45,943 nucleotides of DNA, taken from the NCBI GenBank assembly GCA_003599745.1, contig QZJL01000037.1, positions 1 to 45,943 on the forward strand, read 5' to 3'. Every line of letters starts with the position of its first letter. The first letter of the stretch is position 1. The translations under genes and the position numbers were made by a program. Below are positions 6,384 through 44,915 of this stretch, in pieces. The notes below the pieces were generated by a model that worked only from the letters and a program-made list of their open reading frames with translations, was not told where the DNA came from and ran no database searches. This DNA is from Dehalococcoidia bacterium (GTDB taxonomy: Bacteria; Chloroflexota; Dehalococcoidia; Dehalococcoidales; SURF-40).

Positions 6384-7547
6384 CTATTCTGGTTGTGCTG
6401 TTGTTTTGCTAGCGGGACCTCGCCCATTATGTTTTGAAGGGAGAGCGGAAGCCTCCGGCACTTCTTTTTCACCATCTCCGGCGCTTTCGATGATGCCGCC
6501 GCCGAGTACTTCCTCTCCCCGATACAAGACCACCGCCTGCCCCGGGGCGATGGCTTTTTGCGGCTCTTTGAAAGCCACCAGCACCCGGTCTTCGTCCAAT
6601 TTTAGTTCGGACTTGGCCTCGCTGGCACGATAGCGTATTTTAGCGGTGATGCCAGACTGGTCTTCGGGCGGTTTGCCCGATATCCAGCAAAGGTGGCTGG
6701 CTAGAAGATAGCGGCTCAGTGATTTATCGGCAGTGCCGACCACCAGCCGGTTGGTTTCGATGTCGAGCCGGATGACATAAAGCGGCTGGCCTGTGCCGAG
6801 GCCAAGCCCGTGCCGTTGCCCGACAGTGTAGGCGGCAAGCCCCTTATGCTGCCCAAGGACGTTGCCATTAGTGTCAGCAATCTCACCCGGGTCGGAAGTC
6901 TCCGAGTATTTTCCCAGGAAGGTGCGGTAGTCGCCGTCTTCGATGAAGCAGATGTCCTGGCTCTCGGGAGCGCTGGCGGTAGCCAGGCCCAATTCTACCG
7001 CTTTTGCCCTTACCTCGGTCTTGTGCCAATTGCCGAGGGGAAATTTCAGGTGTCCGAGTTCCGCCTGCCCCAGCGTGTAGAGAAAGTAGCTCTGGTCTTT
7101 GCTGCGGTCAACCGCTTTGAGGAGACGGTAGCCTTCCGGGCTTTCTTTAATCTTTGCGTAGTGACCGGTCGCCAGGTAGTCGGCATCAAGCTCCCACGCT
7201 TTTTTAAGCAGTTTATCGAACTTGAGAAACTGGTTGCACCGAATGCAGGGGTTCGGCGTGCGCCCGTGCCGGTACTCGCCGCAGAAATCAGCGATGACCG
7301 TCTTCTCGAAGGCCTCGCGGAAATCCAGGACGTAGTGGGGGATACCCAGATTGGCACAAGTCCGCCGGGCGCGCTCGATAGCGTCTATGCCGCAGCAGCC
7401 GCCGGGACGCTCGCTGGGCGGCCGGTCATCGGGCCAGAGCTGCATGGTAACGCCGATGGTCTCGTAGCCGGCTTCTTTGAGCAGCGCCGCCGCTACCGAA
7501 GAATCAACCCCACCGCTCATTGCGACCACCACGCGGTTAATTGACAT
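6384..7547 (-). CDS. mnmA: tRNA-specific 2-thiouridylase MnmA
   Basis: MnmA activates U34 of Lys, Glu and Gln tRNAs with ATP and inserts sulfur. The PP-loop SGGVDSS is at residues 11-17, the first catalytic-region cysteine lies in GRTPNPCIRCN and the second in SAPESQDICFIEDGDY, so both active-site Cys are present. The central GQRHGLGLGTGQPLYV and C-terminal AIAPGQAVVLY are family blocks. The protein is 387 residues; about 25 residues at the C-terminus (after GGGIIESAG) are a low-complexity extension beyond the usual end. It follows tmk by 5 bp, so both are in the pdxS-R3H ATPase-tmk-mnmA run. Confidence 0.97.
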   Translation of the reverse strand: MSINRVVVAMSGGVDSSVAAALLKEAGYETIGVTMQLWPDDRPPSERPGGCCGIDAIERARRTCANLGIPHYVLDFREAFEKTVIADFCGEYRHGRTPNPCIRCNQFLKFDKLLKKAWELDADYLATGHYAKIKESPEGYRLLKAVDRSKDQSYFLYTLGQAELGHLKFPLGNWHKTEVRAKAVELGLATASAPESQDICFIEDGDYRTFLGKYSETSDPGEIADTNGNVLGQHKGLAAYTVGQRHGLGLGTGQPLYVIRLDIETNRLVVGTADKSLSRYLLASHLCWISGKPPEDQSGITAKIRYRASEAKSELKLDEDRVLVAFKEPQKAIAPGQAVVLYRGEEVLGGGIIESAGDGEKEVPEASALPSKHNGRGPASKTTAQPE

Positions 7548-8185: not shown

Positions 8186-9715
8186 TTAGCGGTAAACCCT
8201 GACCCGCCGCTCGGGTTCCCGTCCCAGCGAGCGCGAGAAAAGCTCGTTTTTTTCGGCAACCATGTGTTGCAGCCGCCGGATGTAGGAGCTTTGCGGGCTT
8301 AGCTCCACCATCTCCTGCCCGTTTTTGACCTCGTTTACCGCTTTCTCGGCTTCGTTAAGCGCCTGCTGGACGGGGTCTTCTCTCACCTGGGACTTCGCTT
8401 CGGCTCTGCCGCCGGGAAAAGTGTTATCTAAAAATTGCCTTAGCTGGTTGGGGGTGTTGCTTTTGAGAACGTAGAGTGGGATGCCGGCGGCTTCGGCCTC
8501 TTTGATGCGGGGTGGCCTTCTCCGGTAGAAGCTCTTGGCGGTGAGCAGCAGGTTGGCCTGGGAGAGGTCGTTGACGATGGTGAGGTTGATGCCCCGCTCG
8601 TGCGCCAGCTGTTCCAGCCTGCCCCGGTTGGTGCCGAAGATGAAAATCCGGGGTGACCTGTTTTCCCGGATACTTGCTCCGGGTGCGGTCTTGCGGCTGG
8701 TCACGGGCAGGGGCGTCGCCTTTTCTATTTTGACCTCGCCCTTTTCTTCCAGCCAGCGGATTTCGGTGGCGAGCGGCCGGCCGCGCAGGCGGGCATCCAC
8801 CGCTTCGGCCACTTCAGGGTGAATTGCCACGCGGTCGCGGTCCTGGATTTCCACCACGATGTCGAAGGTCGGCGGCGCCATTCTCTCCTGGATTGATTTC
8901 TGTGTGCCGCGGCGCCTGGCCTCTTCGTCGCCCAGGGTCACCGTCTGGATGCCGCCAATCAGGTCGGCCAGGGTCGGGTTCATCATCAGGTTTTCCAGAG
9001 TGTTGCCGTGGGCGGTGCCGACCAGCTGCACGCCGCGCTCGGCGATGGTGCGCGCCGCCTGGGCTTCCAGCTCGGTGCCGATTTCGTCAATCACGATGAC
9101 CTCGGGCATATGGTTTTCCACGGCTTCAATCATCACCGCGTGCTGGAGATTGGGGCTGCTCACCTGCATGCGGCGGGCGGTGCCGATGGCGGGATGGGGA
9201 ATGTCGCCGTCGCCGGCAATCTCGTTGGAGGTGTCTACGATGACGACTCGCTTATCAAGGTCGTCGGCCAGCACCCGTGCTATCTCGCGCAGCATGGTGG
9301 TCTTGCCGACGCCGGGGCGTCCCAAAAGTAGCAGGCTCTTACCCGAGCTTACCAGGTCTTCGATAATCTTGATGGTGCCGAAAACCGCCCGCCCGACGCG
9401 TAAAGTGAGGCCGATGACGCGCCCCTGGCGGTTGCGGATGGCGGAGATGCGGTGCAGGGTACGTTCGATGCCGGCGCGGTTATCGCCGCTGAAGACGCTT
9501 ACCCCGGCGACCACATGGTCGATGTCCGGCTGTGTCACTTCTTCGGGTCTTAAAACCACCTCGCGTTTGGGGAAGCGCGCTTCCGGGGAGCGTCCCAGGT
9601 CGAGCACGACCTCGACCAGTTCGGCTAAGTCTGGCTGGGCTTTCAACGCCTTGCGGATGTCGGTCGGCAGGATATTTACCAGAGCATCAAGGTCATCGGT
9701 AATTACTTTCTGCAA
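8186..9715 (-). CDS. R3H domain / SpoIIIAA-like AAA ATPase (Ycf45 family)
   Basis: The 509-residue protein belongs to the Ycf45-like group of predicted single-stranded nucleic-acid-binding ATPases. The N-terminal half is a RecA/secretion-ATPase-like domain with Walker A GRPGVGKTT (about residues 132-140) and Walker B EVIVIDEIG (about 204-212), plus the conserved stretch VDTSNEIAGDGDIPHPAIG. A second alpha/beta domain begins at IFIFGTNRGRLEQL (about 355). The C-terminus is an R3H domain, with YIRRLQHMVAE giving the Arg-x3-His signature and a GREPERRVRVY end. Cellular function is not established for bacteria outside cyanobacteria. The start is TTG after GAGGTC, 18 bp after the pdxS stop. Confidence 0.87.
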   Translation of the reverse strand: MQKVITDDLDALVNILPTDIRKALKAQPDLAELVEVVLDLGRSPEARFPKREVVLRPEEVTQPDIDHVVAGVSVFSGDNRAGIERTLHRISAIRNRQGRVIGLTLRVGRAVFGTIKIIEDLVSSGKSLLLLGRPGVGKTTMLREIARVLADDLDKRVVIVDTSNEIAGDGDIPHPAIGTARRMQVSSPNLQHAVMIEAVENHMPEVIVIDEIGTELEAQAARTIAERGVQLVGTAHGNTLENLMMNPTLADLIGGIQTVTLGDEEARRRGTQKSIQERMAPPTFDIVVEIQDRDRVAIHPEVAEAVDARLRGRPLATEIRWLEEKGEVKIEKATPLPVTSRKTAPGASIRENRSPRIFIFGTNRGRLEQLAHERGINLTIVNDLSQANLLLTAKSFYRRRPPRIKEAEAAGIPLYVLKSNTPNQLRQFLDNTFPGGRAEAKSQVREDPVQQALNEAEKAVNEVKNGQEMVELSPQSSYIRRLQHMVAEKNELFSRSLGREPERRVRVYR

Positions 9716-43269: not shown

Positions 43270-43278
43270 CAGTGGATA
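43270..43278. repeat. Target site duplication, left copy
   Basis: CAGTGGATA lies directly outside the left terminal repeat and is repeated exactly at 44907-44915. Confidence 0.88.
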
Positions 43279-43314
43279 GGTATTTGTAACTTAGCGCTTT
43301 TCATTAGTCACTCT
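43279..43314 (+). repeat. Left terminal inverted repeat of the insertion sequence
   Basis: Thirty-six bases starting GGTATTTGTAACTTA and ending TTAGTCACTCT match the reverse complement of 44869-44906 apart from a 2-base gap and a few changes. Confidence 0.85.
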
Positions 43315-44277
43315 CTTAAGCGGTTCTTTCTCGTACTCCACCACGTCTGCCCAACTATGCCAGTCATACAGCAGCCCTGCTGCTTGGGCGGGCGGTAGCT
43401 CGTTCAAGGCCATATGCGGCCTGAAGAAGTTGTAATAGACTAGCCAGCCGTCAGCAAACCGCTTTAGGGTATTTGTGTTTTTCAGATAGCGCATAACTTT
43501 TTCTCGGTCTTTCAGAGAGTTATGGAAGCGTTCAATAAGTGCCGTATTCTCACCACTTGACCTCATTTTGAACGGGCTACCTTGTCTGTGTAAGGTATCC
43601 GCACCAAAAGCAAGCTCTATGCCGTCTATGTAGGCTGCCAGCTTGTCAGTGACCACAACTTTAGGCGTTTTCCCCGCTCTTTTAGCCGCCAGTTCCATAA
43701 GTTCTCTGGCATCCTGCTTACCCCGTGTCGTGGTGACTCTGGAAGCAAGCAGGAAGCGGGTCTTGGCGTCTATGATGTCCCAGAAGACCACGCCCTTAGG
43801 GTCGCTAGTCTTAACATCGGTTTTCAGATAGGTCTCATCTGCTATCCAAGTGTCGCCCACTTTCGGGCGCAAATCTTGCATCTCACGGATAGCCTTGTTC
43901 GTGAACTTGTTTATCCACTTGTTCACGGCGGCATGGGATATATCGCCATCGGTCAGCGCTTCGATGTTTTCCTCTATGTCGTGAAGTGACATACCCGAAT
44001 AATATTCCTGCAAAGCATTGGCGATAAAGGAAGCGGACACTCTATGACGTGGCAAGGCACTTGTAGTAACGTTCGAACGGGATGTTTCTGTTGGCTCTGG
44101 AATTACTACCGGGGAACTACCAGTAAGGCCAGCACGTGAACCGCCTGACCTGTCTGACCTACCGATGTATCGTATGTGTCTCTGGATAACCTTATCGCCC
44201 TTGTGGATGGTCTCCACTTCGTAGTCATACCAGTGGCCTGTGCGTGGCGGTATCTGTTTAGCCCGTATGAAACTCAT
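43291..44277 (-). CDS. DDE transposase of the insertion sequence (IS6/ISNCY-like, family not resolved)
   Basis: The 328-residue transposase has an N-terminal segment with a beta-rich motif (HWYDYEVETI...), a helix-turn-helix region (DISHAAVNKWINKF, about 111-125) and a DDE catalytic core: D147 in WIADETYLK, D211 in VVVTDKLAAY and E249 in ALIERFHNS, with YYNFFRPHMAL near the end. The core resembles IS6-type and related archaeal transposases. IS6 elements usually make 8-bp duplications, whereas here it is 9 bp, so the family is left open. The ATG overlaps the stop of the membrane protein gene, so it is translated by coupling. No frameshift or stop interrupts it. Confidence 0.92.
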   Translation of the reverse strand: MSFIRAKQIPPRTGHWYDYEVETIHKGDKVIQRHIRYIGRSDRSGGSRAGLTGSSPVVIPEPTETSRSNVTTSALPRHRVSASFIANALQEYYSGMSLHDIEENIEALTDGDISHAAVNKWINKFTNKAIREMQDLRPKVGDTWIADETYLKTDVKTSDPKGVVFWDIIDAKTRFLLASRVTTTRGKQDARELMELAAKRAGKTPKVVVTDKLAAYIDGIELAFGADTLHRQGSPFKMRSSGENTALIERFHNSLKDREKVMRYLKNTNTLKRFADGWLVYYNFFRPHMALNELPPAQAAGLLYDWHSWADVVEYEKEPLKRVTNEKR

Positions 44278-44828
44278 TTCTTGCGTCTCTCCAATTTTGC
44301 GTCTTTATCTACCAATTTCCATTTTGTGGGGTCTTTCCGAAAATACGAAGGAGCGACCCACTGAACCAGAATATTGGTTTTAGATTTTCGGTACTTCGCA
44401 TATAACACTTGTGTGTCGTCAAATAACTGCTTAATTTCAACCGAATTCGGGTTCTCCTTAGTCGCATTCTCCAATACCGATAATAGGCCGATAAACGTGT
44501 CGTTCAAACGAATGCGAAACCCAGTCTCTAAAGCAGAACGAATAAACTGACCTGGAAAAGAGGCAACTAATGTTATCACCCCAAAGAGAACTAAAAACCC
44601 AGTAACAGCAATTACTAGACCAGCGAAGGCGGACAATAACGGAGAGGCAAACCATATCTTACTTAGGATAAAACTCGCGCCCTCATAAGCTGGCCTTATA
44701 GCCCAAAACACGAGCAACACAAAAAACACCCAAAAGACTAACTGTCCTCGTACTTTACCCCCCGCCATTTTTTGTACCTTCTCTATTAAGTCTGTTAGTG
44801 CCCTGATGACCTCGACTAACTCTTTCAC
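44274..44828 (-). CDS. Two-TM membrane protein carried inside the insertion sequence
   Basis: I recognise no family. The 184-residue product has a short N-terminal amphipathic helix (VIRALTDLIEKVQKMAGG), two membrane segments (about 30-50 and 64-88), and a soluble C-terminal half ending in a basic tail (AKLERRKK). It begins at GTG behind GGGGGTG. It lies fully between the terminal repeats of the element and is the first gene of the unit, coupled to the transposase by a 4-bp overlap. It may modulate transposition, anchor the transposase, or be an unrelated passenger. Its base composition matches the element and not the chromosome. Confidence 0.75.
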   Translation of the reverse strand: MKELVEVIRALTDLIEKVQKMAGGKVRGQLVFWVFFVLLVFWAIRPAYEGASFILSKIWFASPLLSAFAGLVIAVTGFLVLFGVITLVASFPGQFIRSALETGFRIRLNDTFIGLLSVLENATKENPNSVEIKQLFDDTQVLYAKYRKSKTNILVQWVAPSYFRKDPTKWKLVDKDAKLERRKK

Positions 44829-44868
44829 ACAGCACCCCCTTTTGGAGATGCAGGCATGATACTACCGC

Positions 44869-44906
44869 AGAGTGACTAAAGTCAAAAACCATAAGTTTCA
44901 AGTACC
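44869..44906 (-). repeat. Right terminal inverted repeat of the insertion sequence
   Basis: The plus-strand sequence runs from AGAGTGACTAAA to AAGTTTCAAGTACC and is the inverted counterpart of 43279-43314. Confidence 0.85.
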
Positions 44907-44915
44907 CAGTGGATA
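44907..44915. repeat. Target site duplication, right copy
   Basis: CAGTGGATA immediately follows the right terminal repeat. Joining the flanks at one copy restores the palindrome CCAGTGGATACACTGG. Confidence 0.88.

Follow-up and report, generated by a model that had tools for sequence, protein, structure and literature searches.

An IS6-related insertion sequence of Dehalococcoidia with a probable exchangeable cassette for small membrane proteins

Introduction

Insertion sequences are usually regarded as carrying only what movement requires. We studied a contig of a Dehalococcoidia bacterium (GCA_003599745.1, QZJL01000037.1; its whole 45,943-nucleotide stretch is called the window here) in which an intact element begins with a gene for a two-transmembrane (TM) protein, raising the question of what such a gene does in an insertion sequence. 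An earlier note on this DNA had proposed an undescribed group with the membrane protein as an accessory factor.

Results

Limits and ends of the window element

The element occupies positions 43279-44906 (1628 bp) and is bounded by inverted repeats (TIRs) of 36 and 38 bp and by a perfect 9-bp target-site duplication (TSD), CAGTGGATA (Table 1). These limits, claimed earlier, hold up: in 300 dinucleotide-type shuffles, none yielded an 8- or 9-bp TSD with a TIR reaching even half the score of the window element. Both TIRs have the blocks GGTAyTTGwAACTTA and TTAGTCACTCT in common, with the 2-base length difference lying between these blocks, and the final transposase codons fall within the left TIR. 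The GC content of the element is 47%, compared to 58% for the window. The earlier note had suggested looking for further copies with the same ends in this genome; neither a second copy of the element sequence nor another occurrence of its end pattern was found elsewhere in its own MAG (78% complete, 74 contigs), which holds one degenerate transposase (G000:C12; 37%) without recognised ends.

Table 1. Features of the window element (window coordinates).
Feature	Position	Strand	Basis or remark
Left target-site duplication, CAGTGGATA	43270-43278	.	perfect match with 44907-44915
Left TIR, 36 bp	43279-43314	+	GGTATTTGTAACTTA...TTAGTCACTCT; holds 3' end of transposase gene
DDE transposase, 328 aa, IS6/IS240-like catalytic domain	43291-44277	-	PF13610, NF033587, alignment A1
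Passenger gene, 184 aa, GTG start, two predicted TM helices near N-terminus, helical C-terminal tail	44274-44828	-	ORF and hydropathy
Promoter-like TTGACT-18-TATCAT, sigma-70-like	44856-44885	-	consensus scan only
Right TIR, 38 bp	44869-44906	-	end comparison
Right target-site duplication, CAGTGGATA	44907-44915	.	perfect match with 43270-43278

Transposase and passenger gene

The transposase has catalytic residues D147/D211/E249, and the DDE triad is invariant across alignment A1. It matched DDE_Tnp_IS240 (PF13610) above the cut-off (3.2e-15), and the best NCBIfam family was IS6 (NF033587; 5e-29), yet its 101.4 bits are below the curated 125-bit cut-off. The GG tips are as in IS6; the TIRs are longer than the ~14-20 bp of the family, and the duplication has 9 bp in the window element against 8 bp in IS6/IS26 and in most related elements (below). 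The window element is an IS6-related DDE element, not one outside known groups. The N-terminal domain of its transposase has no CxxC zinc finger; most relatives have this finger, and a different domain takes its place in the window transposase and in a second subclade. In a quick tree, this FIRAK-IPPRTG-WYDY domain in place of the finger appeared in two separate subclades (L003/L053-type and window-type).

A 555-bp passenger ORF precedes the transposase gene on the same strand and fits almost exactly into the space that separates the transposase start from the end region; the element is therefore not a classical single-ORF insertion sequence. The two genes overlap by 4 bp (ATGA) and the passenger has hydrophobic segments at about residues 26-44 and 64-86, in agreement with the earlier claim of a coupled upstream two-TM gene inside the repeats. 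The ORF is AT-rich and its coding score is modest (best of six frames, but equalled by 77 of 265 null frames). The predicted structure is all-helical and of low confidence (pLDDT 58), too poor for a structural comparison, and searches of plasmids, 294 class genomes, viral contigs, Pfam, NCBIfam, and PDB returned only chance matches for this protein. The putative promoter has its -35 box within the right TIR and faces first the passenger gene, then the transposase gene. Between this site and the passenger we read by eye a short ORF, MPASPKGGAV (44825-44857, minus strand), whose stop codon overlaps the passenger GTG and which is possibly a leader peptide.

A membrane gene accompanies most related transposases

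We assembled 94 full-length relatives of the transposase, mostly from Dehalococcoidia MAGs, with some from complete genomes and some from Thermoplasmata. Transposase matches (E <= 0.001) occurred in 53 of the 294 class genomes, the weakest being remote integrase-type matches, and 79 loci in genome contigs came mostly from Dehalococcoidia, with four from Thermoplasmata, two from Patescibacteria, and one Nanoarchaeota record. No member of the transposase or passenger families was found in viral contigs and phages.

An abutting same-strand ORF lies upstream in 73 of the 94 relatives. Using a Kyte-Doolittle hydropathy threshold, we called a TM segment in 52 of 59 (88%) upstream ORFs of 100-330 aa, compared to 47 of 170 (28%) flanking ORFs on the same contigs (OR 19, p 3e-16 with related elements counted as independent, a p value that is optimistic because the elements are related). 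Since, in addition, an upstream TM ORF accompanied just one of 16 shorter, IS26-length IS6-type transposases from elsewhere in the same phylum (most 235-292 aa), the association with a membrane gene is a trait of the group. The commonest spacing between passenger and transposase genes is a 4-bp overlap (15 cases).

Both TIRs and TSDs could be located for 55 elements (1367-3832 bp), with duplications of 8 bp in 47 and 9 bp in eight (three of these with one mismatch), and 48 of the 55 enclose a TM ORF. Of the seven without a qualifying ORF, one (L080) does have TM ORFs, but shorter ones (59 aa), and in another (L136:2398-4337) the transposase frame is 512 aa long and carries two TM segments N-terminally, fused in frame as a 2-TM domain that occupies the passenger position. 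Where an element has no upstream gene, its TM ORF often follows the transposase or is encoded on the opposite strand at the far end. The earlier note had asked whether the membrane gene is always upstream and within the repeats: it recurs inside the repeats, but besides the upstream position it may occupy the downstream one, both, or the reverse strand. The loci are mostly contigs of MAGs; the arrangement is also present in complete genomes (L009, L010, L014, L023, L059, and L080). Elements of this kind also occur in Thermoplasmata archaea (L146, L147, L149, and L150), where the duplications are 9 bp long and the TM genes lie upstream. At L062:2158-5053, two different elements of the group stand in tandem with the 8-bp duplication CTTCTTGC common to both.

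Unrelated membrane genes on nearly the same element

Comparison of elements whose transposases are at least 80% identical revealed that their upstream passengers are almost always unrelated and nearly all membrane proteins; some such pairs (transposases 80-95% identical) sit within one genome. In the best-resolved pairs, homology ends near the passenger start codon and restarts near the transposase start codon. L110 and L144, which come from the same MAG and have transposases 94% identical, match at 95% over their left 62 bp, as far as the start codon of the passenger; homology is found again no more than a few bases from where the transposase begins, and the downstream passengers differ as well. 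Junctions are similarly sharp in L122/L125 (one MAG; transposase 91%). Further swap pairs are L053/L070 (same genome; transposase 90%) and L001/L083 (transposase 81%); L064/L065 (transposase 95%) have the transposase start and the right end in common, one passenger being below the TM threshold. The closest swap pairs lie in MAGs. The window element itself is closest to L083 (transposase 81% in protein, 74% in DNA; same TIRs; 9-bp duplication with one mismatch), whose passenger is a 265-aa one-TM gene unrelated to that of the window. Since relatives swap unrelated membrane genes on the same transposase and ends, the membrane gene looks like exchangeable cargo rather than fixed machinery. The accessory factor, as proposed earlier, finds no support here: transposases 80-95% identical carry unrelated genes, and the position of the gene varies. 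We also considered a single conserved passenger family of extreme divergence, and rejected it because the junctions are sharp and families recur.

Passenger families and additional cargo

Several passenger families reappear on distantly related transposases (L058/L123/L139, L071/L104/L128, L070/L085/L092, L009/L011, and L149/L150). The passengers of L010 and L014, both from complete genomes, resemble each other only in an N-terminal TM segment that bears an LPETGW motif; the segment is found in L083 too and, by a profile match, in L146. The third codon position is clearly the most divergent in eight of ten homologous passenger pairs; in L009/L011 and L010/L014 its excess over position 1 is small. 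Across the 294 class genomes, clear matches to two passenger families lie only in such elements, among them an element in G145 that is flanked by perfect 8-bp duplications and whose transposase has an internal deletion; the weak matches in G019 and G059 (7e-4 and 3.4e-4) have no tie to an element. In 54 of 55 elements the passenger has a lower GC content than the transposase, a difference to which TM codons by themselves contribute somewhat. Most passengers match no curated domain, and matches to holin, 8xMP, CyanoTRADDas_TM, and similar entries, being weak or short of the curated cut-offs, were not taken as identifications. The model of passenger family A4 is a tail-anchored beta-sandwich (pLDDT 67), for which Foldseek returned generic beta-sandwich matches only.

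Larger elements have additional genes, namely DNA methylases (L087, L092, L114, and L140) or a HEPN/AbiU2 protein (L109). The methylase genes are directly downstream of the transposase gene, with no restriction gene recognised alongside, and those of L087 and L140 fall inside the located element ends. A 3365-bp element at L167:3296-6660 has perfect TIRs and TSD (CAAGTGAG), a transposase internally deleted to 91 aa, and a cargo of three TM proteins and a gene pair of 235 aa and 149 aa; the 8-mer CAAGTGAG is present a third time at 8303, with a further end at 6669.

Discussion

Relation to known elements

Insertion sequences with a passenger gene are known as transporter IS (tIS), and ISDsp3 of Dehalococcoides is one, listed in a review of IS6 as its single passenger-carrying member (PMC7986276). 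With 1456 bp and a 319-aa transposase without an intact zinc finger (PMC6807381), ISDsp3 (IS6/IS26, solo branch, Dehalococcoides BAV1; TIR 28/36, one passenger) is probably the nearest named relative of the window element, judged by its published description; it differs in its 8-bp TSD, and the papers leave the membrane character of its passenger unstated. Clade h/clade VII of IS6 (ISCpe7, ISCbo1, and ISTps1 of Clostridia) resembles the group in its 340-350-aa transposases, its 8-bp TSDs (PMC7986276, PMC6807381), and an N-terminal domain ahead of the IS6-type catalytic domain, whereas its members are 1226-1349 bp long with no passenger reported; their zinc finger is present in most relatives found here and missing from the window transposase. 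IS26 and classical IS6 elements share the IS240-type DDE domain, GG tips, and a short duplication, but are ~800 bp long with a single ORF, 14-20-bp TIRs, and no passenger. Tn3-family transposons also embed passengers beside transposition genes and exchange them among related elements by recombination (PMC7157771); their transposase is unrelated and these passengers are type II toxin-antitoxin pairs rather than single membrane proteins (PMC7157771). We found no description of a membrane cassette in the open-licence literature. The earlier idea of an undescribed group needs narrowing: the group is IS6-related and within known groups, and calling it under-described is fair because ISDsp3 is the only passenger-carrying IS6 member in the literature searched.

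A probable constant chassis with an exchangeable cassette

We think it probable that these elements form an IS6-related lineage of Dehalococcoidia with a constant chassis and an exchangeable cassette, nearly always a small membrane protein and putatively cargo. The chassis would comprise the TIRs, the TIR-borne promoter, and the transposase gene. The sequence shows that element and enclosed cassette have transposed together, creating 8-9-bp duplications. The passenger is normally the first gene and, in most cases, overlaps the transposase gene or adjoins it directly, which makes a single transcript and coupled translation likely; expression is presumably driven from the TIR promoter. Sequence comparison also shows that unrelated membrane genes have taken over the cassette position while the transposase and the ends remained 80-95% identical, possibly through homologous recombination between element copies that have the left end and the transposase gene in common. 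The gene is observed inside the TIRs and, because passengers are swapped, we infer that it has no role in transposition, as in a tIS; its product would be cargo helping the element or the host to persist, not a catalytic partner of the transposase.

The persistence of a membrane bias while sequence is free argues for a class of function. Our leading guess, because methylases and a HEPN protein accompany passengers, is that they may be membrane-acting conflict effectors of the exclusion, abortive, or addiction type. A broader reading, which we put forward tentatively and hold to be possible rather than likely, is that a lineage of minimal transposons serves as a cassette system in which a fixed transposase chassis spreads and reassorts a large pool of unrelated, small and AT-rich membrane effectors across bacteria and archaea in conflict between elements, viruses, and hosts.

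The main rival is a membrane tether, in which the passenger is a transposition factor that holds the coupled transposase at the membrane or controls it there (by co-translational insertion, cis-restriction, or dosage control), so that only insertion matters and not sequence. A gene that is constant while its sequence varies could indeed mean that the element needs merely membrane insertion as such, and the near-constancy of the TM gene from Dehalococcoidia to Thermoplasmata, the 15 4-bp overlaps, and the in-frame fusion in L136 are consistent with this. So are the clade VIII IS6 transposases, whose extra N-terminal extension has a signal peptide (PMC6807381) and may be a fused membrane segment; the signal-peptide-like N-terminus of the ISTet2 type, together with L136, is a hint of a membrane-transposase link. 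On the other hand, no interface is conserved despite an identity of up to 94-95% between partner transposases, the TM gene can follow the transposase or be encoded on the opposite strand, several elements lack a TM ORF at our threshold, and the soluble domains of passengers are large, diverse, and apparently under selection, and we therefore rate the tether as unlikely. Less likely still is an ordinary tIS with a neutral, occasional passenger captured by chance and no class of function selected: ISDsp3 offers a precedent (PMC7986276), but TM proteins greatly exceed their background frequency, and the same passenger families turn up, and are maintained, on transposases that have diverged. That the membrane ORF is a spurious frame or a trapped host-gene fragment, as the modest coding score and missing relatives of the window ORF alone might suggest, is very improbable given the long, coupled, conserved TM ORFs at the same place in related elements and the nearly exact fit of the window ORF from end region to transposase start.

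With the cassette reading preferred, a whole insertion sequence lineage almost always has a membrane gene whose membrane character is kept while its sequence is swapped. To the IS6 family, credited by the review with a single member that carries a passenger (PMC7986276), this would add a conserved, exchangeable passenger position. The passengers amount to a large set of uncharacterised membrane proteins, and the lineage makes the role of insertion sequence passengers directly testable.
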